Source: Eggerthella timonensis
Lineage (GTDB): Bacteria; Actinomycetota; Coriobacteriia; Coriobacteriales; Eggerthellaceae
Direction: 5' to 3'
Length of the DNA: 64,000 nt
Assembly: GCF_900184265.1 (NCBI RefSeq)
Contig: NZ_FXXA01000002.1
Location: forward strand, 2,218,539-2,282,538
This document shows positions 27,760 through 42,515 of this stretch, piece after piece. The notes beneath the pieces are model-generated. The model saw only the letters and a list, made by a program, of their open reading frames with translations, had not been told where the DNA came from and did no database searches. Within the stretch, counting starts at the first letter, position 1. Every line of letters begins with the position of its first letter. The translations under genes were made by a program, and so were the position numbers.

Positions 27760-28650
27760 ATGGACGAGTTCATCGCCTACGGAAGCTCCACCGAGTTGCC
27801 CACGATCCACGTGATCAGCGACTCGGTGGGCCTGACGGCCCAGGCGGTGGCCCGCGCGGCCGCCGCCCAGTTCGGCGTCACGAACCCCGTCATCGAGGTG
27901 CTGCCGAAGGTGCGCACCTTCGAGGAGATCACGGAGTTCATCGACGAGCACAGCGCCGTGCACAAGCGCAACACCGGCGACGGGCGCATGCTCGTGTTCT
28001 ACACGCTCGTGGACGGCTCCCTGTCGCGGCAGTTCGCCGACTACGCGGCCGCGCGCGATGACATCGTGGCCGTCGACCTCGTCACCGACGCCATCGGCGC
28101 CATCGCGCGCATGACGGGCCGCGAGCCCTCCACGAAGCCGGGCGGCCTTCACGTGGCCGACCAGTACTACTTCCGCCGCATCGAGGCCATCGAGTTCACC
28201 ATCGCCCACGACGACGGCCGCAACCCGCAGGAGCTGCACCAGGCCGACATCGTGCTGTTGGGCGTATCGCGCTCGTCGAAGACGCCCACGTCCATCTACC
28301 TGTCGCAGCAGGGCTACAAGGTGGCGAACATCCCGCTCGATCCCACCACCGAGCCGCCGGCCGAGCTCGCGCAGATCGACCGCACGCGGCTGTTCGGGTT
28401 GATGACGACCCCCGAGGTGCTCATCGGCATCCGCCAGCGGCGCCTGGGGCGGGCGAGCGCCGTCGCGTCGCGCTACGCCGATCCGGAGTACGTGTACCAG
28501 GATCTCGAGGACGCCCGCGCCCTCATGCGCAAACTGGGCTGTATTGTCATTCACACCGAAAATCGTGCCGTTGAGGAAACGGCACAGGAAATTTTGCGCT
28601 ACTATGAGCGGGCTCATCCCCCATCAGCTGATATGATGGGCTCAGCCTGA
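27760..28650 (+). CDS. ppsR: pyruvate,phosphate dikinase regulatory protein (bifunctional kinase/phosphorylase)
   Basis: This 296-residue DUF299-family protein has the P-loop-like GVSRSSKTPTSIYLSQQGYK and the N-terminal IHVISDSVGLTAQAVARAAA. These enzymes use ADP to inactivate PPDK by phosphorylating a Thr near its catalytic His, and reactivate it with phosphate. It lies 2 bp after glyS and directly before ppdK, its predicted target. Alternative names are PDRP and PSRP. A small hairpin (CCCATCA / TGATGGG, 28620-28640) lies at the 3' end of the gene. Confidence 0.95.
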   Translation: MDEFIAYGSSTELPTIHVISDSVGLTAQAVARAAAAQFGVTNPVIEVLPKVRTFEEITEFIDEHSAVHKRNTGDGRMLVFYTLVDGSLSRQFADYAAARDDIVAVDLVTDAIGAIARMTGREPSTKPGGLHVADQYYFRRIEAIEFTIAHDDGRNPQELHQADIVLLGVSRSSKTPTSIYLSQQGYKVANIPLDPTTEPPAELAQIDRTRLFGLMTTPEVLIGIRQRRLGRASAVASRYADPEYVYQDLEDARALMRKLGCIVIHTENRAVEETAQEILRYYERAHPPSADMMGSA

Positions 28651-28703
28651 GACCAGGGTTCCCAAGTTTTGTAAAGTCGGTACGTCGGGTTAAGGAGAAA
28701 AAG

Positions 28704-31442
28704 GTGACTGAAGAAGTCAAGCGAGTGTATGCGTTCGGCAAAGACGCGCAGGGCAACAACGTAACTGAGGGCAACACCAACATGAAGGCGATCCTCGGCG
28801 GCAAGGGAGCGAACCTCGCCGAGATGGCCAACATCGGGCTGCCGGTGCCTCCCGGGTTCACCATCACGTGCCAGACCTGCATGGAGTACGCCAATGCGGA
28901 CAACACGTGGCCCGAGGGCGCGCTCGACACCATCCAGGAGTACCGCGACGATCTCGAGGCCCGCATGGGCAAGAAGATCGGCGACGCCGAGGATCCGCTG
29001 CTCGTGTCCGTCCGCTCCGGCGCCCCCATGTCCATGCCGGGCATGATGGACACCGTGCTGAACCTCGGCCTCAACGACCAGTCCATCAACGGCCTGATCA
29101 AGCAGACCGACAACCCGCGCTTCGCCTGGGACTCCTACCGCCGCTTCATCCAGATGTTCTCCAACGTGGTGATGAACCTCGACGGCGACCTGTTCGAGAA
29201 CGCCATCACGGCTATGAAGCACGCCCGCGGCGTCGCGTCCGACACCGACCTCACCGCCGAGGACCTGCAGGAGCTCGTGAGCGAGTTCAAGCAGATCTTC
29301 GCCGAGAACGTCGACGCCGAGGCGTACCCGAGCCTCGTCGTGGACGGCGCCGTGCAGTTCCCGCAGGACCCGAGCGTGCAGCTGCAGCTGGCCATCGAGG
29401 CCGTGTTCGGCAGCTGGAACAACCCGCGCGCAACCCTGTACCGCAAGCAGAACAAGATCGCCGACGACCTGGGCACCGCCGTCAACGTGCAGTCCATGGT
29501 GTTCGGCAACAAGGGCAACACGTCGGCCACCGGCGTCGCGTTCACGCGCAACCCCGCCAACGGCGAGAAGGAGTTCTACGGCGACTACCTGGTGAACGCC
29601 CAGGGCGAGGACGTCGTGGCCGGCATCCGCAACACGAGCCCCATCGCCGACCTCAAGAACGTCGAGGGACTCGAAGAGGCCGGTCGCGAGCTCGAGGAGG
29701 TGTTCGTCACCCTCGAGAACCACTTCCGCGACATGTGCGACATCGAGTTCACCATCGAGCAGGGCAAGCTCTGGATGCTGCAGACCCGCGTGGGCAAGCG
29801 CACCGCCGCCGCCGCGCTGCACATCGCCATCGAGATGGAGAAGGAGGGCCTCATCTCGAAGGAGGAGGCCGTCATGCGCGTCGATCCCGAGCAGCTCGAC
29901 CAGCTGCTGCATCCGCAGTTCGACAAGAACGCCTCCTACGACGTGATCGCCAAGGGCCTGAACGCCTCTCCGGGCGCCGCCGTGGGCGAGGCCGTGTTCT
30001 CCGCCGCCGACGCGGTGGCCGTGGCCGAGGCTGGCCGCAAGTGCGTGCTCGTGCGCTGGGAGACGAACCCCGACGACCTCGCCGGCATGATCGCCGCCGA
30101 GGGCATCCTCACCTCGCACGGCGGCAAGACGTCGCATGCGGCCGTCATCGCCCGCGGCATGGGCGCCCCGTGCGTATGCGGCGTCGAGGCGCTGCGCATC
30201 GACGCTGAGAAGAAGCAGGCCAGCGTCGTGGGAGGCGACATCGTCATCAAGGAAGGCGACATGATCTCCATCGATGGCACCACCGGTTCCGTGGTGCTGG
30301 GCGCGGTCGAGCTCGTGCTGCCCGAGATGACGGGCGACCTCGACACCATCCTCGAGTGGGCCGACGAGTTCCGCACGCTGGGCGTGCGCGCCAACGCCGA
30401 CAACCCCGAGGACGCGGAGCTCTCCCGCGGCTTCGGCGCCGAGGGCATCGGGCTCTGCCGCACCGAGCACATGTTCCTGGGCGACCGCAAGCAGATCATC
30501 CAGACCTTCATCCTCAACGAGGATCCGGCCGTGCGCGAAAAGGCCGTGAGCGAGCTGCTGGAAGCCCAGACGGGCGACTTCCTCGGCATGTTCCGCGCTA
30601 TGGACGGGCTGCCGGTCATCGTGCGCCTGCTCGATCCGCCGCTGCACGAGTTCCTCGAGAGCCCCCGCGCGCTCGACGTGGAGATCGCCAAGCTGGAGGC
30701 CACGGGCGGAGACCGCGAGACCATCGCGCAGAAGCGCATGCTCATGGAGCAGATCGACGGCATGAGCGAGGCGAACCCGATGCTGGGCCTGCGCGGCTGC
30801 CGCCTCGGCATCGTGTACCCCATCCTGCCGGTGATGCAGGTGCGCGCCATCGCGACGGCCTGCGCTCAGCTGAAGAAGGAGGGCCTCGATCCGAAGCCCG
30901 AGGTCATGATCCCGCTCGTGTCCGTGGTGGCCGAGCTCGAGAAGCTGCGCAAGGTCGCCGAGGACACCATCGCCGAGGTCGCCGCCGAGCAGGGCGTCGA
31001 GCTGGACATCCCCGTGGGCACGATGATCGAGCTGCCGCGCGCGGCCGTGACGGCCGACGAGATCGGCGCGGTGGCCGACTTCTTCAGCTTCGGCACGAAC
31101 GACCTGACCCAGACGACGTTCGGCTTCAGCCGCGACGACGTGGAGGCCGAGTTCGTCCCGCAGTACCTGGCCGAGCGCCTGCTGCCCTACAACCCCTTCG
31201 CCACCATCGATCCGGGCGTGGCGAAGCTCGTGGAGATGGGCGTCGACCTGGGTCACAAGGGCAACCCCGACCTCGTCTGCGGCGTATGCGGCGAGCACGG
31301 CGGCGACCCCGACTCCGTGAAGATGTTCCACACGATCGGCCTCGACTACGTCAGCTGCTCCCCGTACCGCGTGCCGCTGGCCCGTCTGGCCGCCGGCCAG
31401 GCCGCCCTGGCCGAGAAGATGGGCGACGGCCGCGACAAGTAG
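28704..31442 (+). CDS. ppdK: pyruvate, phosphate dikinase
   Basis: The 912-residue enzyme interconverts pyruvate, ATP and phosphate with PEP, AMP and pyrophosphate. The N-terminal ATP-grasp begins VYAFGKDAQGNNVTEGN and includes GGKGANLAEMANIGLPVPPG. The swivelling His site is ILTSHGGKTSHAAVIARGMG; the Thr two residues before the catalytic His is the usual regulatory target. The C-terminal PEP domain has LCRTEHMF, FSFGTNDLTQTTFGFSRDD and CGVCGEHGGDP. Start is GTG with AAGGAGAAAAAG upstream. Full length. Confidence 0.98.
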   Translation: MTEEVKRVYAFGKDAQGNNVTEGNTNMKAILGGKGANLAEMANIGLPVPPGFTITCQTCMEYANADNTWPEGALDTIQEYRDDLEARMGKKIGDAEDPLLVSVRSGAPMSMPGMMDTVLNLGLNDQSINGLIKQTDNPRFAWDSYRRFIQMFSNVVMNLDGDLFENAITAMKHARGVASDTDLTAEDLQELVSEFKQIFAENVDAEAYPSLVVDGAVQFPQDPSVQLQLAIEAVFGSWNNPRATLYRKQNKIADDLGTAVNVQSMVFGNKGNTSATGVAFTRNPANGEKEFYGDYLVNAQGEDVVAGIRNTSPIADLKNVEGLEEAGRELEEVFVTLENHFRDMCDIEFTIEQGKLWMLQTRVGKRTAAAALHIAIEMEKEGLISKEEAVMRVDPEQLDQLLHPQFDKNASYDVIAKGLNASPGAAVGEAVFSAADAVAVAEAGRKCVLVRWETNPDDLAGMIAAEGILTSHGGKTSHAAVIARGMGAPCVCGVEALRIDAEKKQASVVGGDIVIKEGDMISIDGTTGSVVLGAVELVLPEMTGDLDTILEWADEFRTLGVRANADNPEDAELSRGFGAEGIGLCRTEHMFLGDRKQIIQTFILNEDPAVREKAVSELLEAQTGDFLGMFRAMDGLPVIVRLLDPPLHEFLESPRALDVEIAKLEATGGDRETIAQKRMLMEQIDGMSEANPMLGLRGCRLGIVYPILPVMQVRAIATACAQLKKEGLDPKPEVMIPLVSVVAELEKLRKVAEDTIAEVAAEQGVELDIPVGTMIELPRAAVTADEIGAVADFFSFGTNDLTQTTFGFSRDDVEAEFVPQYLAERLLPYNPFATIDPGVAKLVEMGVDLGHKGNPDLVCGVCGEHGGDPDSVKMFHTIGLDYVSCSPYRVPLARLAAGQAALAEKMGDGRDK

Positions 31443-31468
31443 CCGCCCGCTTCAACCTCGCCTGATCG

Positions 31469-31498
31469 AAGGGCCCGCAGCACGCGCTGCGGGCCCTT
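31469..31498 (+). terminator. intrinsic terminator after ppdK
   Basis: AAGGGCCCGCAGC and GCTGCGGGCCCTT form a perfect 13-bp stem with a 4-nt loop, followed by CTGCG rather than a long T-run. It lies 26 bp beyond the ppdK stop. Confidence 0.75.
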
Positions 31499-31538
31499 CT
31501 GCGTGCGGGGAGCGGCCTTGTGCCCTTGCGGGGAGCCG

Positions 31539-31596
31539 CGATGTCGGCCCGAACGCACGGTTTCGAGTCGAATTCCGCGTGTTCGGGCCGACATCG
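31539..31596. repeat. 22-bp-arm palindrome between convergent genes
   Basis: Arms at 31539-31560 and 31575-31596 match at 20 of 22 positions (core GATGTCGGCCCGAAC); the loop is 14 nt. It lies 21 bp from the MFS gene stop. It could terminate that gene on the minus strand, and it belongs by size to the group of long palindromes in this window. Confidence 0.65.
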
Positions 31597-31617
31597 CCCT
31601 TGCGCGGCGCAACGAGG

Positions 31618-33111
31618 CTAGTCCTCCACCGTTTCCTTGAGCGGCGTGTTCTTCAAGAACGCCATGAGCGCGATACCCGCCGCAAGCAGCGGCACCATGA
31701 CGAAGAACACGGGCAGCAACGCGTCGTTGTAGGCGCCGGCGATGGCTGCGTGCACGTCTCCCGGAAGGGCGTTCACAACGGCGGGAGTGATCGAGTTCGC
31801 GTCGATGCCCAGCGCCTCGCCGCCTCCGAGCGGCGCCAGTCGCTCCGCCATGAGGCGCGTAAGGTTGCCCGTGAACAGCGCTCCGGCGATGGAGGAGCCC
31901 AGCGTGGTACCGATTTCGCGGAAGAGGTTCGTGGCGGAGGTCGCCGTGCCCACGATGGAGGCGGGGAACTCGTTCTGCACGATGAGCACCAGTACTTGGA
32001 AGCTCATGCCGATGCCGAATCCCACGATGCAGAGGGAGACTACGGCGAATGCCGGGGACATGTCGGCGTTCAGCATAGTCATGGCGATACCGCCCGCCGT
32101 TGCTATGGCGAAGCTCGTTACCATGATCGCCTTGTACTTGCCGTTGCGTGCGATCAGGAAGCCGGCCAGCAGCGAGGCGATGAGGTTCGCGATGCTCATG
32201 GGCACTTCCATGTAGCCGGCCGCCGTGGCGCTCATGCCGTGGGCGATCTGGAAGTACATGGGAAGATACGACATCGAGGCCATGAGGGCGAACAGGGTGA
32301 CAAGCCCGGCCAGCGTGGTCAGCACGAAGTTGCGGTTGCGGAACAGCTCGAGCGGTATGATGGGCTGTATCGCGCGCCGCTCCACCAGCACGAACAGGAC
32401 GACGAGCACGGCCGTGGCGGCTAACAGCCCGATGATCTGCGGGCTGTCCCACGCGTAGTCGATGCCGCCGAGCGAGGTGGCCAGCGTGAGCGTGCACACC
32501 GCCGCCGACACCAGCACGGTGCCGCGCACGTCGAAGGACGAGAGGCTCTCGCGCTTCTTCGGGTTCGGCAGGAACGCCACGGCCGCGACGATAGAGATCG
32601 CCGACAGGGGCACGGTGATGAGGAACGCCCAGTGCCAGCTGAGGTAGTCGGTGAACAGGCCCCCCAGCAAAGGGCCGGCCAGCATGGGCACGGCCCAAGC
32701 GATGCCCATGATGTTCATGTACAGCGGGCGCTTGCGGGCGGGTATGACGTCGGCCACGATGGCCTGGGACAGCACCATGAGTCCGCCGCCGCCCAGCCCT
32801 TGTACGGCGCGCCCCGCTATCATCTGGGTCATGTCGAAGGAGATGCCGCAGACCACCGATCCGCCGGTGAACAGCACGAGCGCGCCGACGAATATCCACT
32901 TGCGGCCGATGAGGTCGCCCAGTTTGCCGTAGATGGGCATGACGATGGTTGCCGTGAGCACGTAGGCGGTGGTCACCCACAGCATGCGGTCGACGCCGCC
33001 CAGGTCGCCCACGATGGTGGGCAGGGCCGTGGCGACGATGGTCTGCTCGAGCGAGCCGGACAGCATCGCCAGCATAAGGCCGACGAACACGAGTATCATC
33101 TTGCGATTCAC
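31618..33111 (-). CDS. MFS drug:H+ antiporter, DHA2 (14-TM) type
   Basis: The 497-residue exporter has about 14 membrane helices. Motif D1 is altered (LEQTIVATALPTIVGDLGG) and motif A is GKLGDLIGRKWIFV. An antiporter motif C-like stretch reads AWAVPMLAGPLLGGLFTDYL. This matches the EmrB/QacA family of multidrug and lipid exporters. The start is a GTG overlapping the stop of a small upstream ORF (GTGA), with AAGGAGGTGC 7 nt upstream. An operator copy lies about 190 bp before it. Regulation by the nearby MarR protein is inferred. Confidence 0.93.
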   Translation of the reverse strand: MNRKMILVFVGLMLAMLSGSLEQTIVATALPTIVGDLGGVDRMLWVTTAYVLTATIVMPIYGKLGDLIGRKWIFVGALVLFTGGSVVCGISFDMTQMIAGRAVQGLGGGGLMVLSQAIVADVIPARKRPLYMNIMGIAWAVPMLAGPLLGGLFTDYLSWHWAFLITVPLSAISIVAAVAFLPNPKKRESLSSFDVRGTVLVSAAVCTLTLATSLGGIDYAWDSPQIIGLLAATAVLVVLFVLVERRAIQPIIPLELFRNRNFVLTTLAGLVTLFALMASMSYLPMYFQIAHGMSATAAGYMEVPMSIANLIASLLAGFLIARNGKYKAIMVTSFAIATAGGIAMTMLNADMSPAFAVVSLCIVGFGIGMSFQVLVLIVQNEFPASIVGTATSATNLFREIGTTLGSSIAGALFTGNLTRLMAERLAPLGGGEALGIDANSITPAVVNALPGDVHAAIAGAYNDALLPVFFVMVPLLAAGIALMAFLKNTPLKETVED

Positions 33112-33254
33112 GAAGCACCTCCTTCTTCGCGCATAAGCGCCGACAGCTCATAGGACAGAATGCAGCTGACTGCATGTTTGGGCGCGTGCAGCGTTTCCGC
33201 CAATCGCAAGCGCTGACGGTGTACGAGACCCTTATCGCGGGGCATTTCCTTCAC
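33108..33254 (-). CDS. small ORF translationally coupled to the MFS exporter
   Basis: The 48-residue frame begins at GTG (33252-33254) with an excellent ribosome site (AAGGAGG, 8 nt spacing) and ends in GTGA overlapping the exporter start. The product MKEMPRDKGLVHRQRLRLAE onward is basic at the N-terminus and ends LSALMREEGGAS. It has no membrane helix. It may be a small regulatory protein or a leader whose translation opens the exporter start. Coding status rests on the ribosome site and coupling only. Confidence 0.55.
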   Translation of the reverse strand: MKEMPRDKGLVHRQRLRLAETLHAPKHAVSCILSYELSALMREEGGAS

Positions 33255-33301
33255 GCTGGAACCTCCTTGGTCGATGGCGTCCGGTTTGACGCAACTTAAA
33301 T

Positions 33302-33319
33302 TAGTCTGTAATCGGACAA
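33302..33319. promoter_or_regulatory. MarR-type operator copy 1
   Basis: TAGTCTGTAATCGGACAA is one of five matches to the near-palindrome TAGTCTGAAATCAGACTA (8-bp half-sites, 2-bp centre) in this locus. It lies about 50 bp upstream of the small ORF and exporter on the minus strand. Confidence 0.65.
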
Positions 33320-33411
33320 TATCATAGGGGAGTGGGAAGGGCAATCGAGCGCGCCTCTCGAGGACGTTCGCGAGAATAGGATGCGGGCGTTGCGATCAGG
33401 ACTTATGTAGA

Positions 33412-33429
33412 AAGACTGAAATCAGACTA
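33412..33429. promoter_or_regulatory. MarR-type operator copy 2
   Basis: AAGACTGAAATCAGACTA has one perfect half-site (TCAGACTA) and one with mismatches. It lies in the middle of the divergent intergenic region 33255-33592. Confidence 0.65.
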
Positions 33430-33468
33430 TATTTTGTCTCATGGTCTTATATGGGCTTCGCCCCATGA

Positions 33469-33486
33469 TAGTCTGAAATCGGGCGA
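33469..33486. promoter_or_regulatory. MarR-type operator copy 3
   Basis: TAGTCTGAAATCGGGCGA has a perfect left half-site and a degenerate right one. It lies directly upstream of the plus-strand CmpB-type gene, placed to control it. The small hairpin TATGGGC / GCCCCAT lies just before it. Confidence 0.6.
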
Positions 33487-33592
33487 ACAATTCAAGGACT
33501 TCTGAGAGGTGGGGAAGGCGATGGCGTGGTTTTCAGCGGCGGAGGGATGCGAGGCGCGTCCGAGAAGCCTTTCGAAGGGAGGGCTCGACGGT

Positions 33593-34276
33593 GTGCGCAT
33601 CGATGGGCGCGCTCGCGCCGTTGCCAAGCTCGGCTTCTTCGAGCTCTTCTGGATATTCGTCGTATGCAGCGTGCTGGGTCTTGTCCTGGAAACGATGTTC
33701 CACCTTCTGGTGTTGGGGGTGAGGCAAGACCGTGCCGGGCTTTTGTTCGGGCCGTTCTCGCCCATATATGGGTTCGGGGCGGTGCTCATGACCGTTGCCC
33801 TCAACCGCTTCCGCGCTGTTTCGCCGTTCGCGTTGTTCGTGGCCAGCGCCGTCATCGGAGGAGCGTTCGAGTTCTTCGTCAGCTGGATCATGGAGGCGCT
33901 ATTCGGCATCCATGCATGGGACTACTCGGGTACGTTTTTGTCCTTTGACGGTCGCACGAACTTCGTGTTCATGGTGGCGTGGGGCATACTGGGATCGGTT
34001 TGGATCAAGCTGTTGCTGCCGCTCGTGTTGGGGGCGATAGGTTCCATTTTGCCGCGATGGCGGGGAGGCCTGACTGCGGTATGCCTCGCGTTCATGCTGC
34101 TCGACGGCGTTATGACTGTGCAAGCGCTCGACTGCTGGTACGGGCGCTTAGCGGGCGATGCCGTAGACACCCCTTTAGAGCAGTTCTACGCGCAGTGCTT
34201 CGATGACGATCACATGCAGGCCCGGTTCCAATCCATGAGCATGAACGCGCAGGATGCCGTGCGGTCGAGAAGATAG
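33593..34276 (+). CDS. CmpB-type (putative ABC type IV) membrane protein
   Basis: The product has about 228 residues with five membrane helices and conserved stretches FFELFWIFVVCSVLGLVLET, GVRQDRAGLLFGPFSPIYGF and SAVIGGAFEFFVSWIMEALF. This is the PF06541 pattern of small membrane proteins of unknown transport role. I chose the GTG at 33593 because AAGGGAGGG lies 9 nt upstream and the protein then starts just before helix 1. Alternatives are GTG 33509 and ATG 33521, whose ribosome sites are poorer. It is divergent from the exporter and shares operators with it. Confidence 0.85.
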   Translation: MRIDGRARAVAKLGFFELFWIFVVCSVLGLVLETMFHLLVLGVRQDRAGLLFGPFSPIYGFGAVLMTVALNRFRAVSPFALFVASAVIGGAFEFFVSWIMEALFGIHAWDYSGTFLSFDGRTNFVFMVAWGILGSVWIKLLLPLVLGAIGSILPRWRGGLTAVCLAFMLLDGVMTVQALDCWYGRLAGDAVDTPLEQFYAQCFDDDHMQARFQSMSMNAQDAVRSRR

Positions 34277-34292
34277 CGTCTATTCGCCGTGC

Positions 34293-34832
34293 TCACTGCT
34301 CCGTCGGCTCGGCCGCTTCGTCCAACCCCGCGTTGAATGCGTCGGCGAAAGCCCGCATCGAGCTCGCGGCGGCCTCGATCTCGGTTGCGTCCACGGTTTG
34401 GAAAGCTCGGTTCTCCAGTTTGCGAAGCTCTTCGAACACCTTATCGCAGAAGCGCGCGCCCTCATAGGTGAGCGTGATGTCCTTGGCTCGGGCATCTTCG
34501 GCGGAAGGGCTCTCGGCTAGATAGCCTATCTCCTTGAACTTCGAGGATATGGATCCAACCGTCTGCTTGGGAAGCGATAGCGCTTCGCTGATGAAGCGCT
34601 GATTGCGGGGTGTCGCGGAGTAGTGCAGCACCATGAGCACCATGAGCGAGTTGACGTTAAGGGCATGGCGTTTGGCGAACCGGTCGTACAGCGCCGTCGT
34701 CTTGAGCATGGTTTGGGTGAGCTCGACGGTGGCCTTGAAGCTCGCAGGCAGGTTGTCGCCGTAAAGCGCCTGCAGCATCTCGTCTCGAGAAGCCTCGGCC
34801 TGCGCGTGTGCGACCGCCTTCTTCTGTCCCAT
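34293..34832 (-). CDS. MarR-family transcriptional regulator
   Basis: The 179-residue regulator has a MarR winged helix at about 60-125: NSLMVLMVLHYSATPRNQRF, SEALSLPKQTVGSISSKFKE, and the wing SAEDARAKDITLTYEGARFC. Helices on both sides form the dimer domain. GGAGGCTCC precedes the ATG. It lies between two divergent intergenic regions that carry the five shared operators, so it is the natural candidate for their ligand. Members of the family release DNA on binding phenolics, oxidants or lipids; here the inducer is unknown. Confidence 0.92.
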   Translation of the reverse strand: MGQKKAVAHAQAEASRDEMLQALYGDNLPASFKATVELTQTMLKTTALYDRFAKRHALNVNSLMVLMVLHYSATPRNQRFISEALSLPKQTVGSISSKFKEIGYLAESPSAEDARAKDITLTYEGARFCDKVFEELRKLENRAFQTVDATEIEAAASSMRAFADAFNAGLDEAAEPTEQ

Positions 34833-34990
34833 GGAGCCTCCTTAGCCTTCTTAGGCGCTCGTCGGCGCCTGTTTTCGCCCATCGTCCACTATAACGTATT
34901 TTCGGGCCCTCTGTTCCGAATCGATACTGATCAGGAGGAGTTTGATAGCATTCATTCTTGTTCCGGCTTCCCTGTACGTACATGTGAATT

Positions 34991-35008
34991 TTGCCTGAAA
35001 TCAGACTA
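34991..35008. promoter_or_regulatory. MarR-type operator copy 4
   Basis: TTGCCTGAAATCAGACTA has a perfect right half-site. It lies in the 343-bp region between the marR gene and the acyltransferase operon, about 160 bp upstream of marR. Confidence 0.62.
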
Positions 35009-35048
35009 AATACTGTGGATCTTCCTGTCTCCGAAGTCGTTCTTGCCG

Positions 35049-35071
35049 TATAATAGCCTGTAATCGGTCTA
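35049..35071 (+). promoter_or_regulatory. -10 box overlapped by MarR-type operator copy 5
   Basis: TATAAT at 35049-35054 is a consensus -10; the -35 is weak. The operator TAGCCTGTAATCGGTCTA (35054-35071) begins on its last base and covers the expected transcription start of the plus-strand operon at 35176. A repressor bound here would block RNA polymerase. This is the most direct link between operator and promoter in the locus. Confidence 0.65.
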
Positions 35072-35175
35072 TTGTAGGCAACTTCGGATTGATTCGGACT
35101 CGAGATGGCCTTAGCGCGCCTGCTTCGGACGATCTTGATCGACCGACCCGATCGTCGAGAGAGAGGAGGGGAGCC

Positions 35176-35661
35176 ATGGGGCTTTTCAGGTGCGCGGCGT
35201 ACCTCGCAGCGGCAGGGGCGACGTCGTTCGTCCTAGGGCGCGCGCTTCCATCAGCTTGGCTTCGAGAGCCGCGCGGAATATTCCGCTGCTTTCCGTTCGA
35301 GCGGGAAGGGCGTCTCTATGATCGGATCGGGGTGAAGCGTTGGCAGGGCAAGCTGCCGGATATGAGCAGGATTCTCCCCGGCTTCCTACCGCCCAAGAGA
35401 ATCGGACCGACCGGCGGCGACCTTTCCGAGATGGTGAGGGAGACCTGCGTGGCAGAGCTTTGCCATTGGGCGCTCTGTGCAGCGGGCGTTGCGTGCCTTT
35501 GGCTGTGGCCCGGTGCGGGAGGCATCGCCGTCTTCGCTGCGTATGCGGCGGGGAACGCGCCTTTCATCCTGGCGCAACGATGCAACCGGCCTCGGCTCGT
35601 CCGTCTCGAGGAGAAACGGCGGGCTCGGTGGGGCGGCGGAAGGGAAGGGGTTCTTTCATGA
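35176..35661 (+). CDS. CrtO-like (glycosyl-diaponeurosporenoate acyltransferase family) membrane protein
   Basis: The 161-residue protein has an N-terminal membrane helix (about 5-25). The conserved block FPFEREGRLYDRIGVKRWQG, LPDMSRILPGFLPPKRI follows, then two hydrophobic helices at about 100-140. This matches small acyltransferases typified by staphyloxanthin CrtO, which acylate a sugar on a membrane lipid. The ATG at 35176 follows GAGAGGAGGGG. It overlaps the glycosyltransferase by ATGA, so sugar transfer and acylation are probably linked. No carotenoid synthesis gene is in view, so a different lipid acceptor is likely. Confidence 0.8.
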   Translation: MGLFRCAAYLAAAGATSFVLGRALPSAWLREPRGIFRCFPFEREGRLYDRIGVKRWQGKLPDMSRILPGFLPPKRIGPTGGDLSEMVRETCVAELCHWALCAAGVACLWLWPGAGGIAVFAAYAAGNAPFILAQRCNRPRLVRLEEKRRARWGGGREGVLS

Positions 35662-37460
35662 GGATGCTGATCTTGAGCTGCAGCACCGGGAAGGGGCATG
35701 ATTCGTGTGCCATGGCCGTCAAGGAGCACTTCGAGGATCGAGGGTGGGCATGCGAGATGGATGACGCGCTCGGATTTGCCTCTCCGCGGCTCTCACGGTT
35801 TTTGAACTGGGGTCACTCCACGATGTACCGGCATCTTCCCTGGCTTTTCCGTGTGGGCTACCGATTCTCCGAGCGGCATCCCGACGCGTTTTGGAGAAAG
35901 CTCGGGATATACCGGGTGTTCGGACTCGGAACCGAGCGTATGATCGAGCGCATTGAGACGGGCTGCTTCGACGCCGTTGTCTGCACCCATGCGTTCGCAG
36001 CCGTGATGCTGACGGACGCTGTCGGACGGCGTCCCTTATCGGTCGCAACCTTCCTGATCGGAACCGACTACACCTGCAATCCAGGTACGAAAGACACGAT
36101 GCTCGATCGTTACTTCGTGCCCGACCCTTCACTTGCCGGTCTCTACGCATGCCCGGCGATAGCGAAAGAGCGCGTGATCGGCTCGGGTATACCACTGCGG
36201 AAGGAATTCTATCTCCGAACGCCCCGAACGCTCGCTCGCCGCGAGCTCGGCATACCCGAAGATGTGCCGCATGTGCTCGTGATGTGCGGGAGCATGGGAT
36301 GCGGGCCGATGGAAAGGCTCGTGCAAGGTCTCGAGCGCGAGACGGCGGGCGATGTATGCGTTACCGTCGTATGCGGCACGAACCGGCGACTGCGACTGAA
36401 GCTCGCCAAACGCTACGAGGGAAACCCCGATGTGCGTGTTCGAGGGTTTGCGAACGACGTGCCGCTGCTCATGGACTCGGCCGATCTGTGCCTCACCAAA
36501 CCCGGTGGGCTCACGGTCGCCGAAGCCGCCGTTAAGGAGCTGCCCATGGTTCTCGTGGATGCCGTGGCGGGGTGCGAGGAGCCCAACCGAAAGTTCTTTG
36601 TGCGCAGCGGCGGCGCGGTAACGGGCGAGAGCGTTCGCGAGCTCGTCGCCGCCGCCGTCGGCCTGCTGGCGCGGCCCGGTGAGCTCGAAAAGATGAGGGC
36701 CCGGCTCGCCTCCCTGCCGGGGAGGGACGCACCCGCCGTGCTTTGCGAGCAGGTGGAAGGGTTCGTGCGGGATAGGAAATCGGCCGCGGTCCGCGCCCAG
36801 GCGTCGGTTCGGCCACGAAAGGAAGTCGCCATGCTGTTAGGTACGCCTTGCCTCGACGTTCATGCAAGGGGGATCGCATCGCCTGCTGCCGAGCGGCAGG
36901 CGATGATCGCCGCCGCCACCCGGCTCATCGCGCGGGAGGGGGTTGCACTCGTCACCCTTTCGCGCGCCGCCGAGGAAGCCGGCGTCGAGCACGACGCGGT
37001 CTCGAGAAGTTTCGCCAGCTCGGAAGAGCTCAAGAAAGCGGGGCTTGCCGAATTGGCCGTGCGAATCGAACGGCATTTCGAGCGCCTCTTCCTGCTAGTG
37101 GGAAGAGAGGGGCGCGAAGACGCCTTCTTGTTCTCGAGCCCGGCGACCGTTTGGGCCGACGATTTGGCCGCCGCGCTCGATTCGTTGCTGGGAGATCCTC
37201 GCGCCGCCGAGGAAGCGGCGGCGCTTTGCTCGACGGCGATGCGGGATCCCGAGGTCAATTCCGTCGTGCGGGGTGCGCTCAGGTTCTTCGTGCGAATCTG
37301 CGCGCCCTTCGTGGGAAGGCGAAAAGCGCGGATGCTCTGCCTTATCGTGGAAGGAGCCGTTGTCGACACATGCCTGTTCGGCGAGCCGTTCGATGCGGGC
37401 GAGCTGAGCGAAGCGGTCGCATCGATGTTCGCGTCGCCCGCTGCGCGTCTAGCGGGTTGA
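35658..37460 (+). CDS. MGDG-synthase-like glycosyltransferase fused to a TetR regulator
   Basis: The 600-residue frame has two parts. Residues 1 to about 385 are a GT28 lipid glycosyltransferase: N-domain MLILSCSTGKGHDSCAMAVK, then VMCGSMGCGPMERLVQGLER and the donor site LCLTKPGGLTVAEAAVKELP. Residues 392-600 are a full TetR protein: AERQAMIAAATRLIAREGVA, AEEAGVEHDAVSRSFASSEE, then an all-helical ligand domain. No stop separates them. An internal ATG at 36831 (residue 392) has AAAGGAAG 6 nt upstream, so a free 209-residue TetR may also be made. The start overlaps the acyltransferase stop (ATGA). A fusion of a lipid-modifying enzyme with a regulator is unusual. Confidence 0.88.
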   Translation: MRMLILSCSTGKGHDSCAMAVKEHFEDRGWACEMDDALGFASPRLSRFLNWGHSTMYRHLPWLFRVGYRFSERHPDAFWRKLGIYRVFGLGTERMIERIETGCFDAVVCTHAFAAVMLTDAVGRRPLSVATFLIGTDYTCNPGTKDTMLDRYFVPDPSLAGLYACPAIAKERVIGSGIPLRKEFYLRTPRTLARRELGIPEDVPHVLVMCGSMGCGPMERLVQGLERETAGDVCVTVVCGTNRRLRLKLAKRYEGNPDVRVRGFANDVPLLMDSADLCLTKPGGLTVAEAAVKELPMVLVDAVAGCEEPNRKFFVRSGGAVTGESVRELVAAAVGLLARPGELEKMRARLASLPGRDAPAVLCEQVEGFVRDRKSAAVRAQASVRPRKEVAMLLGTPCLDVHARGIASPAAERQAMIAAATRLIAREGVALVTLSRAAEEAGVEHDAVSRSFASSEELKKAGLAELAVRIERHFERLFLLVGREGREDAFLFSSPATVWADDLAAALDSLLGDPRAAEEAAALCSTAMRDPEVNSVVRGALRFFVRICAPFVGRRKARMLCLIVEGAVVDTCLFGEPFDAGELSEAVASMFASPAARLAG

Positions 37461-37477
37461 CGGGGGCTCGCGGTGCA

Positions 37478-37496
37478 CCCCCCCCCCTTTTTTTTT
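37478..37496 (+). repeat. C10-T9 homopolymer tract
   Basis: Ten C followed by nine T lie just after the fusion gene stop and 84 bp before mocA. The T-run could finish a terminator, but no strong stem was seen. Long C-runs are prone to slippage. Confidence 0.6.
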
Positions 37497-37579
37497 CTCG
37501 TTTCCCAAAGACTACCCGTTCGGGTGATGCGGGCAGGGTATAGAGGCTCCTACACTTGCAGTGAGGAAAGGAGGAGCCG

Positions 37580-38197
37580 ATGCAGGTGTTTCCGAACGCG
37601 TGCGCGGCCGTGCTGGCCGCTGGCGCGTCGACGCGCATGGGCGCATGCAAGCTGACGCGGCCGTTCGCCGGGTCGACGCTGCTCGAGCGGGCGCTGCGGG
37701 CCGCGCGCGGGTGCGCTGCGGCAGAGACGGTCGTGGTGACGGGCGCCCATCGCGACGCCGTCGCGCGCTCGGCGCAGGAGGCGGGGGCGCGCGAGGCGTT
37801 CAACCCCTCGTGGGAGCGCGGGCAGTCGACCTCGGTGCGCACGGCGGCGCGCTTCGCCGCGGCGCACGGCTACGACTTGCTGCTGGTCATGGTGGCCGAC
37901 CAGCCCTACGTGGAGGCGGCGCACCTCGACGCGCTGCTGCGCGCGTACGCGGCGGGCGGCGCCCATGCCTGCGTCACGCAGGGTGCGCTTCGCCGCGGCA
38001 ACCCGTGCCTGTTCGACCGGGCGTGCTTCCCCCTGCTCGAGGAGCTGGAGGGCGACGAGGGCGCGCGCTCGATGCTGCGCGCGCATCCGGAGCTTGCCGT
38101 GCGCGCCGTGCCGGCGGCGGACGCGCGCGTGCTCGACGACGTGGACACGCCCGACGAGCTCGCCCGCATCGAGGAGGCGATCCTCGGTGGGCGCTAG
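37580..38197 (+). CDS. mocA: MocA-family molybdenum cofactor cytidylyltransferase
   Basis: The 205-residue nucleotidyltransferase has the NTP loop AAVLAAGASTRMGACKL and the metal site MVADQPYVEAAH. Also present are GALRRGNPCLFDRACFPLLE and DDVDTPDELARIEEA at the end. MocA links CMP to molybdopterin, giving the cofactor form used by xanthine-oxidase-family hydroxylases, which is exactly what this island encodes. GAAAGGAGGAG precedes the ATG. It overlaps the next gene by 11 bp. Confidence 0.9.
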   Translation: MQVFPNACAAVLAAGASTRMGACKLTRPFAGSTLLERALRAARGCAAAETVVVTGAHRDAVARSAQEAGAREAFNPSWERGQSTSVRTAARFAAAHGYDLLLVMVADQPYVEAAHLDALLRAYAAGGAHACVTQGALRRGNPCLFDRACFPLLEELEGDEGARSMLRAHPELAVRAVPAADARVLDDVDTPDELARIEEAILGGR

Positions 38198-39437
38198 GCG
38201 CCCGGCGGGCGCGCCGCCGATCGACCGCGCGCAGTTCCCCGTGCTCGAGCGCCGCATCGGCCGCGACGGCGCGCGCCCGCTCGCGTACCTCGACAGCGCG
38301 GCCACCTCCCTCGTGCCGCTGCGCGTGACCGACGCCGTGACGCGTTTTTTGCACACGAGCTGCGCCAACATCCACCGCGGCGCGCACACGCTGGCCGAGG
38401 AGGCCACCGACGCCTACGAGTGCGCGCGCGAGCGCCTTGCGGCCCACCTGGGCGTGGGCGACGCGTCGCGCGTCGTGTTCACGCACGGGGCCACCGAGTC
38501 GCTCAACCTGGCGGCGCTCGGCTGGGCGGAGCATGCGCTCGGACCGGGCGACGTCGTGGCCGTGGCCGAGGACAACCATCACGCCAACATCGTGTGCTGG
38601 CAGATGCTGGCCGAGCGCCGCGGCGTCGAGATCGCCTGGATACCCGTCGATGCGGACGGACGGCTCGACTACGGCGCCTGGTGCCGCATCGCCGAGCGCG
38701 GCCCCAAGCTGGCAGCGCTGTCTCAGCAGTCGAACGTCGTCGGCTGGGAACAGCCCGACCTGGCCCGCATCATGGACGACGCGCGCCTGGCCGGGGCCTT
38801 CACGGCGCTCGACGGCGCGCAGGTCGTCGGCCACGAGGCGGTGGACCTCGCCGCCCTGTCCGTCGACTTCTACGCGCTGTCGGCGCACAAGATGCTGGGG
38901 CTCACCGGCATCGGCGCGCTCGCGTGCTCGCCGCGCGCCCTCGAGGGCATGCGGCCGGCGCTCGGGGGCGGCGGCATGGTGGCGCAGGTAGACGCCCGCG
39001 GCTACGCGGTCGCGCCGGGCCCGCAGGGCTTCGAGGCGGGCACGCCCGCCATCGCCGCCGCGGTCGCCTGGGACGAGGCGCTGCGCATGCTGGAGGAGGC
39101 GGGCATGGAAGCGGTCCGGCGCCACGTGGCCGCGCTGGCCTCCCGCGCGCAGCGCGGGCTCGCGGCGCTGCCGGGCGTGCGCGTGCTGGGCGGGACGTCG
39201 CCCGCCAGCGCCTCGCTCGTGAGCTTCACGGTGGACGGCGTGCACCCCCACGACGCGAGCGCGGCCCTCGACGCCGAGGGCGTGCTCGTGCGCGCCGGCC
39301 ATCACTGCGCCAAGCCGCTCCATGCAGCCCTCGGCGCGCGGGCCAGCGTGCGCGCCAGCTTCGCGGGCTACTCGAGCGACGAGGACGTGGACGCGCTGCT
39401 GCGCGCTGCGGCGCGCCTCGTCGAGCGGGGGGCGTGA
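38187..39437 (+). CDS. cysteine desulfurase, group II (SufS/CsdA type)
   Basis: The 416-residue PLP enzyme begins at a GTG (38187) overlapping mocA, with GAGGAGG 9 nt upstream; an upstream frame to 37965 lies inside mocA. It shows YLDSAATSLVPLRVTDAVTR, TSCANIHRGAHTLAEEATDA, the PLP lysine in ALSAHKMLGLTGIGAL and the catalytic Cys in LVRAGHHCAKPLHAALG. It releases sulfur from cysteine. In this context it could serve both Fe-S assembly with the next gene and sulfuration of the molybdenum centre through the XdhC-type protein. Confidence 0.95.
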   Translation: MGARRPAGAPPIDRAQFPVLERRIGRDGARPLAYLDSAATSLVPLRVTDAVTRFLHTSCANIHRGAHTLAEEATDAYECARERLAAHLGVGDASRVVFTHGATESLNLAALGWAEHALGPGDVVAVAEDNHHANIVCWQMLAERRGVEIAWIPVDADGRLDYGAWCRIAERGPKLAALSQQSNVVGWEQPDLARIMDDARLAGAFTALDGAQVVGHEAVDLAALSVDFYALSAHKMLGLTGIGALACSPRALEGMRPALGGGGMVAQVDARGYAVAPGPQGFEAGTPAIAAAVAWDEALRMLEEAGMEAVRRHVAALASRAQRGLAALPGVRVLGGTSPASASLVSFTVDGVHPHDASAALDAEGVLVRAGHHCAKPLHAALGARASVRASFAGYSSDEDVDALLRAAARLVERGA

Positions 39438-39850
39438 GGGCCGTGCGCATCGACGACGAGCGCATCGTGGAACGGTACCGCCGCCCGCGCTGCAAGGGGT
39501 TCGAGGGCGCCTACGACGGCGCGGCGTCGGGCGACAACCCGTTCTGCGGCGACGCCCTCGAGGTGCGCGTGGCCCTCGAGCGCCGCGACGGCGGCATGGC
39601 GGTCGCCCGCGCGGCGTTCGACGGTTACGCGTGCTCGCTGTGCACGGCGAGCGCCGACGTGCTCATGGAGCGCGCGGCGGGCATGTCGGCGGACGAGGCT
39701 GCCGCCTTGACGGGCGACGACGTGCTGCGCTGGTGGGGCGGCCTCGAGGTGGGCCGCACGCGCAGGGGCTGCGTCGACCTGCCGGTCTCGGTGTTCAAGC
39801 GGGCGCTCGAGGCCGCGCTCGAACGCCCGCGGGCGAGTTTGCTACAATAG
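39434..39850 (+). CDS. SufU/IscU-like Fe-S scaffold or sulfur acceptor
   Basis: The 138-residue protein has the three Cys regions of SufU: NPFCGDALEVRV, YACSLCTASADVLME and RRGCVDLPVSVFKRAL. SufU accepts sulfur from the group II desulfurase, its upstream neighbour. A GTG at 39434 overlaps that gene (GTGA); a second GTG at 39443 is possible. Pairing within the hydroxylase island suggests a dedicated sulfur supply for its two [2Fe-2S] and one [4Fe-4S] clusters. Confidence 0.88.
   Translation: MRAVRIDDERIVERYRRPRCKGFEGAYDGAASGDNPFCGDALEVRVALERRDGGMAVARAAFDGYACSLCTASADVLMERAAGMSADEAAALTGDDVLRWWGGLEVGRTRRGCVDLPVSVFKRALEAALERPRASLLQ
39843..39848 (+). promoter_or_regulatory. possible -10 of the MalT-like regulator gene
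   Basis: TACAAT lies at the end of the scaffold gene, 58 bp before the regulator ATG, and looks like a -10 box. No convincing -35 was found. Confidence 0.35.
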
Positions 39851-39905
39851 GCTGCCAGGGGATGCACGGCGCCGCCGGCAGGCGGCGGGGCAAAAGGGGG
39901 AGAAC

Positions 39906-42515
39906 ATGGGCGAGAGCGAGCCGGCCGACGGCATGCGCGACATCGTACTGCTGCCGTCGAAGATCATCGTCCCGTCGCGGGCAGCCCACGTGGTGGAGCG
40001 CCCGGCGGTCACCGAGAAGCTCGCGGCGGCGATCTCGTGCCCGCTGACCGCGGTGGTGTCGCCTGCGGGGTTCGGCAAGACCACGGCGGTGGTGTCGTGG
40101 CTGCGCACGCTGGACGGCGTGCCGTGCGCCTGGTACCTGCTCGACGCCGAGGATGCCGCGCTCGACCGCTTCTGGCTCTACCTCGTCACCGCGCTGCGCC
40201 GCGCCGACGAGCGCATCTGCCAGTCGTTCGACGACGTGCGCCTGCCCGACGACTTCTCGAAGCTGCGCCCCGCGCTGGACGCGCTCATCATCCAGATGGC
40301 CGAGTACGGGCGCGATTTCGTGTGCGTACTCGAGGACTTCCACGAGGTGCACGAGGACGCAGGAGTCCACGAGAGCGTGCACTACCTGCTGAAGCACCTG
40401 CCGCCGAACGCGCACTTCGTGGTGACCTCGCGCCAGGCGCTCAGGTTCCCCACCGCCAAGATGCGCGTGGAGGGCGCGCTCAACGAGGTGGGCGAGGCCG
40501 ACCTGCGCCTGTCCGCCGACGAGACGGGCGCGCTGCTCGCGGGCATGGGCATGCGCCTGGGGGCCGAGCAGGCGAGCGCCGTGCACGAGGCGACGGCCGG
40601 CTGGGCAACGGGCATCCGGCTCGTGGCGCTGCTGTGCGGCGACGGGTCGCGGACGCAGGTGGACGAGGCCCTGGCCTGCGCTCGCGTCAGCATCAACGAC
40701 TACCTGTTCGAGGAGGTGTTCAGCGTGCTGCCCGCCGAGCGGCGGCGGTTCCTCGCGGCCACGTCGGTGGTGGGGTCGTTCTGCCTGCCCCTGGCCGAGC
40801 GCATCACGGGCCTGTCGCGCGAGGAGGCGGCCGGTCAGGTGGACTACCTCGTGCGCAACGGCCTGTTCATCGAACGGTTCGAACGCAAGGAGGGCGAGGA
40901 CTGGTACCGCTACCACCCGCTGCTGGCCGACCTGCTCCACCAGCGCCTCGACCGCATGGACGACCTCGACCCCGGCTCGCTGGGAGCCGCCGCGTGCGCG
41001 TGGCTCGAGGAGCACGGCTACTTCGACTCGGCGGTGGAGGTGGCGGCCGATCAGGAGGACTTCGGGCGCGTGCGACAGATCATCGTCGACAACTGGAAGC
41101 GGCTGTACATGAGCGACAGCCACTACACCGTGCTGCGCTGGGCGTCGTTCCTTCCCGAGGCCGAGATCATGGCGAGCCCGCTTCTGTGCGCGGTGCTGGC
41201 CATGCCGTTCGCGCTGAAGGGCGAATCCGAGCGCGCCAACGCCTGCTTGGAGAACGCCATCGCGCGCCTGCACGACGACGAGGACTTCCTGTTCGCGCTA
41301 TGCCTCGTGCAGAAGGCGTTCGTAGCGTCGTTTAAGAACGATTGGGGGCATATGCGCCAGTTCGCGACGCAGGCGCTGAAGTACCTGCCGGCCGACGAGT
41401 TCTACCTGCGCAGCATGATGCTGCAGGTGGAGGCGTCGTCCAGCGCGGCATTCGACCTGCTGGGCGCGAAGGCGGCGTTCGCGAAATCGCTGGCCATGCA
41501 GCTGGACTACGGCAACAAGTGCCTGTCGAGCTCGGCTTTCTGCAACCTGTCGCGCATCTGCGCGAACCTCGGCCACGTGCAGGAGGCGCGCCACTACGCC
41601 GATCGCGCGCTCGCGCTGTACCCTGAGCAGGAGCGGCGCTTCAAGCCCATGCTGGGCTACGCCTACCTGTCCGTCATGCTGTGCTCCTACGAGGAGGGCG
41701 ACCTCGAGCGGGCCCTGCGCGAGCACGAGACGTACCTGGTGGTGTCCTCGGAGGGCGTCGTGCCGGGCAGCGCCGCCGAGGAGGCGCTGCTCTTGGCGAA
41801 GATCCGCTACCGCACGGGCGTCCCGGGCGCGCGCGAGGGGTTCTTCGCGGCGATGGCGATGGACGAGGAAGGGGCGATCCTTGCGGCTCCTTCGTTCGCC
41901 ATGGCGAGCGACTGGTGCCGGGCGTTCCGCACGCGTGCCCTCGAGGAGGCGTCGTCCCCGTTCGAGAACCGCACCACGGGCGTGTTCCGCGCCATGCTGG
42001 CGTACTGCCTGGACGCGGTGGCGCGCTACGAGGACGCGTGCGCGTTCGCCGATGCGACGGAGGCGGAGGACCGTTCGGTGTTCGTGCGCGCCTCGGCCGT
42101 GGCCTGCGCGTTCTCGGAGAAGGTGGCGCGCCTCGGCCGTGCGGACGCCTACTTCGAGCGCGCTGCGCGCCATGCCCGCGACTCGAAGCTCGACAGCGCG
42201 CTTGCCGAGAACATCGCGTTTCTGCGCCCGGCTGCGCAGCGCTTCCTCGCGCAGACCGAGGACGCCGCGCTCGCGGGCTACGTGCGCGGCCTGCTCGACG
42301 CCGACGTCGACGCGGGCGAGGCCTCGCGCCTCACCGAGCGCGAGGCGGACGTGATGCGCTGCATCGCCGCGGGGCTGACCATCGCCCAGGCGGCGGACGA
42401 GCTGTTCGTCTCGCGCGAGACGGTGAAGAAGCACCTGGCGAACATCTACGGCAAGCTGGGCGTGCACTCCAAGATGCAGGCGGTCGCCCTCCTGCGCGAC
42501 GCCGGCGTCATCTAG
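39906..42515 (+). CDS. MalT-like LuxR-family regulator (STAND ATPase)
   Basis: The 869-residue regulator has an N-terminal NTPase with Walker A SPAGFGKTT (about 52-60) and Walker B FVCVLEDFHEV. A winged-helix and helical-repeat sensor middle follows. The C-terminal LuxR HTH (about 808-869) contains LTEREADVMRCIAAGLTIAQ and FVSRETVKKHLANIYGKLGV. Such proteins need ATP and an inducer to activate nearby promoters. It lies directly upstream of the hydroxylase structural genes, its likely target. The inducer is unknown but may be the enzyme's substrate. Confidence 0.94.
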   Translation: MGESEPADGMRDIVLLPSKIIVPSRAAHVVERPAVTEKLAAAISCPLTAVVSPAGFGKTTAVVSWLRTLDGVPCAWYLLDAEDAALDRFWLYLVTALRRADERICQSFDDVRLPDDFSKLRPALDALIIQMAEYGRDFVCVLEDFHEVHEDAGVHESVHYLLKHLPPNAHFVVTSRQALRFPTAKMRVEGALNEVGEADLRLSADETGALLAGMGMRLGAEQASAVHEATAGWATGIRLVALLCGDGSRTQVDEALACARVSINDYLFEEVFSVLPAERRRFLAATSVVGSFCLPLAERITGLSREEAAGQVDYLVRNGLFIERFERKEGEDWYRYHPLLADLLHQRLDRMDDLDPGSLGAAACAWLEEHGYFDSAVEVAADQEDFGRVRQIIVDNWKRLYMSDSHYTVLRWASFLPEAEIMASPLLCAVLAMPFALKGESERANACLENAIARLHDDEDFLFALCLVQKAFVASFKNDWGHMRQFATQALKYLPADEFYLRSMMLQVEASSSAAFDLLGAKAAFAKSLAMQLDYGNKCLSSSAFCNLSRICANLGHVQEARHYADRALALYPEQERRFKPMLGYAYLSVMLCSYEEGDLERALREHETYLVVSSEGVVPGSAAEEALLLAKIRYRTGVPGAREGFFAAMAMDEEGAILAAPSFAMASDWCRAFRTRALEEASSPFENRTTGVFRAMLAYCLDAVARYEDACAFADATEAEDRSVFVRASAVACAFSEKVARLGRADAYFERAARHARDSKLDSALAENIAFLRPAAQRFLAQTEDAALAGYVRGLLDADVDAGEASRLTEREADVMRCIAAGLTIAQAADELFVSRETVKKHLANIYGKLGVHSKMQAVALLRDAGVI

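Follow-up and report, generated by a model that had tools for sequence, protein, structure and literature searches.

A lineage-specific in-frame fusion of a GT28-type glycosyltransferase with a TetR-like half altered in its DNA-reading part

The genome of Eggerthella timonensis holds a gene in which a glycosyltransferase of the GT28/MGDG-synthase type and a TetR-like protein are joined in one reading frame. This gene fusion is most probably real and lineage-specific, and its two halves have fared differently: the enzyme looks intact, whereas the TetR half is changed in the part that reads DNA. To the reading that we prefer, a lineage-specific fusion in which the TetR half is attached to the enzyme without being a repressor, we give about an even chance. 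In this model, a CrtO-like/glycosyltransferase gene pair within a variable block lies directly before a TetR-type gene, with no stop to part the enzyme from the TetR half. The enzyme half would still work next to the CrtO-like protein and transfer sugar to a lipid of the membrane. The TetR half would have ceased to read its ancestral operator and, should it have a role, would act in dimerisation or ligand binding as an appendage of the enzyme, not as a repressor. The change in the DNA-reading part makes such a one-off fusion more likely than a tethered gene switch.

The fusion lies in the window, the whole stretch of 64,000 nucleotides that was analysed, and its features are collected in the table. 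Translation of the forward strand bears out the uninterrupted frame of 600 codons described in the earlier note, open from 35658 to 37457 with no internal stop. Three Pfam domains score above their gathering thresholds in the product: MGDG_synth at residues 14–179 and Glyco_tran_28_C at 206–300, which agree with the enzyme type that the note had proposed for the N-terminal part, and TetR_N at 417–458. Enzyme and TetR relatives were aligned separately, as a mixed alignment misplaced the TetR rows. With enzyme relatives as the alignment, the enzyme half is well predicted up to the end of its last helix at residue 382 and is followed by a stretch of low confidence, while in the separate model of the TetR half the first helix starts at residue 409. 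The structure of the TetR half was taken from this separate model and not from the full-length one, where that half is poorly predicted because the enzyme alignment (A3) holds no TetR rows. In these models the halves form what appear to be independent folded units with a flexible joint between them.

Table. Coordinates of the fusion gene, its parts and the associated features (positions in the window unless a locus is named)
Feature	Position	Strand	Details
Variable block holding the fusion	31511..37574		6.5 kb of unrelated DNA in congener G003
Palindrome, candidate operator, upstream of the CrtO-like gene	35125..35146		9 paired positions
CrtO-like membrane protein gene	35176..35661	+	PF18927, 89.2 bits (cut-off 27.3)
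Fusion gene	35658..37460	+	600 codons plus stop
Glycosyltransferase half, residues 1–382	35658..36803	+	Pfam, structure model, 39/39 invariant columns
Linker, residues 384–410	36807..36887	+	pLDDT below 50
AAAGGAAG (36818–36825) with ATG 36831, candidate internal start (residue 392)	36818..36833	+	
TetR-like half, residues 392–600	36831..37457	+	TetR_N match, model, PDB matches
Recognition segment, residues 444–451	36987..37010	+	EHDAVSRS versus PLGSTTxY in free relatives
Paired AATGTACNNNNGTACATT palindromes, 42 bp apart	G000:C2:1366482-1366541 (in L091)		Before the free TetR paralog
MFS exporter with YoeB_toxin domain	L091 4577-6769	-	72.0 bits (cut-off 27)
MFS exporter with YoeB_toxin domain	L092 10211-12430	+	69.2 bits (cut-off 27)
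MFS exporter with YoeB_toxin domain	L093 9645-11864	+	70.7 bits (cut-off 27)

The enzyme half shares both domains of the GT28/MGDG-synthase-type glycosyltransferases (PF06925 and PF04101) as well as their invariant columns. In an alignment of 20 rows picked out of 38 enzyme relatives, it keeps every one of the 39 columns that are invariant in the 19 relatives. None of the GT28-type relatives compared has a C-terminal half with a TetR fold, unlike the fusion. Its best NCBIfam enzyme match is NF010135, diglucosyl diacylglycerol synthase, at 127 bits, far below the equivalog cut-off of 500. The CrtO-like gene directly before it, whose start was chosen at ATG 35176 in a frame open from TTG 35089, overlaps the fusion in an ATGA, where the TGA of the former meets the ATG of the latter.

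The earlier note had described the other half as a complete TetR regulator, and of this the TetR_N profile and the fold stand, while an intact regulator is not supported. Modelled with TetR relatives as the alignment, this half consists of helices only, including a helix-turn-helix (HTH), in a TetR-like fold with a mean pLDDT of 81.7. A Foldseek search of the PDB returned TetR-family regulators, with 3v6g and 3v78 as the best matches, followed by SCO7518, EbrR and RcdA; 3t6n, 3v6g and 3v78 we take to be structures of the mycobacterial regulator Rv3066. Among the TetR profiles against which the C-terminal part was tested, TetR_N matches above its cut-off (26.2 bits against 24) and TetR_C_31 reaches 19.4 bits against 27.4 for the TetR part alone, several free relatives likewise falling below that cut-off. 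A search of PHROGs gave a single weak match of unknown function at residues 407–461. The fold is thus common to the fused TetR, to the free TetR regulators of the bacterial family (the paralog at G000:C2:1366563 and its relatives) and to the solved 3t6n/3v6g/3v78, 2dg8, EbrR (3hta) and RcdA (5x5i). The free relatives differ from the fused protein in being free-standing, in retaining PLGSTTxY as well as a basic arm, and in mostly having paired palindromes at the promoter.

The loss of DNA-reading residues is seen when columns are counted in 11 of the 12 free TetR relatives, the remaining one, L096, having been left out for its incomplete N-terminus. Of the columns invariant in these 11 proteins, the fused TetR keeps 11 of 24 in the HTH, 13 of 17 in the C-domain and two of five in the arm, and in the recognition segment it keeps none of seven. 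By itself, the contrast between HTH and C-domain falls short of significance (Fisher p = 0.06). Each of the 11 free relatives, on the other hand, keeps 24 of the 24–26 HTH columns that are invariant in the others, and even remoter solved regulators, counted by hand on the alignments, retain more than the fusion does (3t6n, 20/24 in the HTH and 6/7 in the segment; 2dg8, 15/24 and 5/7). The net charge of arm plus HTH is -1 in the fusion versus +3 to +12 in the 11 relatives. Since the fused TetR is 28–38% identical to the 12 free relatives, general divergence accounts for part of the column loss, and 2dg8 likewise retains no more than 15 of the 24 HTH columns. Judged by its residues, the TetR module has probably lost the ability to read the ancestral site; binding to another site would be possible, as TetR_N scores above its cut-off and the HTH is predicted to be folded.

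The putative site of the free relatives can be approached through their promoters, where palindromes of the form AATGTACNNNNGTACATT are present in six of the seven inspected (L094 being the exception), and a pair with the 42-bp spacing precedes the free TetR gene in five of six genomes searched, G103 having none. The genome of the window has just two AATGTACNNNNGTACATT sites at up to two mismatches, both of them at the free paralog. A reversed-pattern control found four matches per strand here and one in G030, the other four genomes being free of them; what identifies AATGTACNNNNGTACATT is therefore its place, pairing and spacing, not its count. With as many as three mismatches allowed, no such site occurs in the window, where 0.18 would be expected by chance.

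These results bear on the proposal of the earlier note, a regulator tethered to the enzyme, in which a TetR half of new DNA specificity would repress its own operon while the enzyme holds it near the membrane or the product, and in which a free TetR of 209 residues may also arise from ATG 36831. Such a switch we consider unlikely, and in its intact form it is not supported, given the change of all seven recognition positions, the negative net charge and the absence of the palindromic site of the relatives from the window. The passing TetR_N score and the folded HTH are in its favour, as are the palindrome upstream of the CrtO-like gene, which nine of 200 mononucleotide shuffles equal, and a further imperfect one at 34911–34934, though these palindromes are close to what chance would give. 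The former lies between the MarR-like and CrtO-like genes, and both may instead pertain to the MarR-like gene, which is divergent; a scan of 34700–37650 for sigma-70-like promoters gave no match, and the build is not conserved.

The putative internal start adds little to this proposal. The motif and the ATG are there as described, but the gap after AAAGGAAG is 5 nt and not the 6 nt given previously, and the computed anti-SD pairing of -5.0 kcal/mol is ordinary. Of 244 internal in-frame ATGs, taken from 32 genes of the window, 61 do as well or better, as do five of 14 further internal ATGs within the fusion, and 26 of the 32 gene starts, which come from rough gene calls, surpass it. ATG 36831 may be used as a start, but an SD of a strength common among internal ATGs was rejected as strong evidence for it. 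Likewise, the linker resembles the SD-plus-start context found at the free paralog, but this pattern is generic and was discarded as a sign of homology.

Rather unlikely, to our judgement, is a variant in which the TetR half has turned into a sensor or dimerising module and a ligand in its pocket (a glycolipid, a lipid precursor or a drug) would control the enzyme directly, without DNA.

The distribution of the fusion is narrow. The sole carrier is the genome of the window itself, be it among 138 genomes of the family or in samples of 396 each from the class and from the phylum (overlapping sets), so that the build was found in no second lineage and the check for its conservation in related genomes, which had been proposed beforehand, turned out negative. 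A scan of viral contigs revealed no relative, and none of the 26 matching plasmid records covers 80% of the query. Searches of open-licence papers turned up no GT28–TetR fusion, which agrees, as weak evidence, with the earlier statement that no protein of this build had been described. The nearest enzyme relative, from genome G103 of another genus, is 59% identical and is a protein of 409 residues with its own stop; it follows a CrtO-like gene (63%) and is followed by a cold-shock gene, both supported by Pfam, and a tblastn search of its 16-kb locus with the TetR half gave nothing better than E = 0.078. Three congeners have only distant matches to the enzyme (27–29% identity) and none to the CrtO-like protein. 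The case that would have spoken against the fusion, relatives in which a stop parts enzyme and TetR, was looked for and not found, because no enzyme-bearing relative was seen with a TetR gene alongside.

In the surroundings of the gene, congener G003 aligns at 97% to 27977–31510 and 37575–40514 and to nothing in between, where 6.1 kb here stand against 6.5 kb of other genes, and two further congeners cease to align at 31508 and 31514, the contig of the latter ending soon after. The block at 31511–37574 is thus a place of gene turnover between PPDK-like and MobA-like genes. The third-position GC of its CrtO-like, enzyme, TetR-like, MarR-like and CmpB-like genes is 0.68–0.79, compared with 0.91 in its MFS gene and 0.91–0.96 in the listed flanking genes. 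Since the free TetR paralog (0.74, against 0.75 for the TetR half) and the G103 enzyme (0.79) have similar values, this low GC is no proof of a recent arrival. A C10T9 homopolymer tract lies at 37478–37496, just past the stop of the fusion and near the right edge of the block.

A fusion confined to one of the genomes examined, in a variable block, with a changed recognition segment and arm and with a G103 relative that is an enzyme without TetR, is also what would be expected of a passenger, formed when the stop of the enzyme was lost beside a decaying TetR gene and its extra 200 residues were tolerated without a role. This account is possible but doubtful, given that the TetR frame is open throughout, the confidence of its predicted fold is good and the C-domain retains most of its invariant columns (13 of 17).

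That a sequencing error or a strain-specific frameshift (a wrong base count or a recent indel) joins two adjacent genes is quite improbable. The frame is known from one strain of the species. Stops at 36773 and 36838 interrupt the two alternative frames, the second of them 7 nt beyond the start of ATG 36831, so that the gain or loss of a single base would split the genes and an error in length could create the fusion. Nevertheless, a local alignment to the G103 enzyme stays in frame through residue 378, at about position 36791, and the longest run in 36691–36840 is GGGG. Moreover, in a survey of 33,251 columns aligned to G003 (restricted to rows of at least 800 columns and 85% identity, some parts of the window having no counterpart), indels within genes come in multiples of three, cancel one another out or fall in the final 10 bases of a gene.

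If the fusion protein is produced and put to use, as in the preferred reading of a non-repressor appendage, the enzyme would have recruited a TetR ligand-binding fold after the ancestral DNA specificity was lost. This would represent a route from regulators to metabolic control domains and offer a way into the control of glycolipids in this lineage. If the TetR half is a passenger, the gene would be a snapshot of gene fusion amid gene turnover, with its halves under different constraint.

Beyond the phylum, a pattern search across the GTDB species genomes yielded 36 loci (L053–L088), all of them clostridial by their record titles and all with stop-to-stop enzyme frames of 372–486 residues that hold no TetR part. 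In these loci, genes for CrtO-like proteins, GT28-type glycosyltransferases and PAP2-like proteins are often adjacent or overlapping. CrtO-like genes were found near at least 11 of the 36 enzymes and PAP2-like genes near at least 15, both lower bounds, as the comparison was limited to non-overlapping ORFs of at least 70 residues within about 2.5 kb. The PAP2-like label has been checked on one member, at 25.6 bits just under the Pfam cut-off of 27. The clostridial set resembles the fusion locus and that of G103 in having the CrtO-like gene directly before the enzyme, and differs from the fusion locus, where no PAP2-like gene was found. No TetR gene was detected near any of the 36 enzymes within the same limits, which leaves a transfer of the whole CrtO-like/enzyme/TetR unit from Clostridia unsupported. 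One of these loci, L076, was considered as a clostridial fusion, as its tblastn match reached residue 431 of the query, and was rejected since its enzyme frame ends without a TetR match.

A further observation concerns the neighbours of the free TetR relatives. The MFS exporter adjoining them holds an in-frame C-terminal YoeB_toxin Pfam domain in three of the four exporters scanned, from three genera, and the fourth, a protein of 533 residues in L095, is without it.
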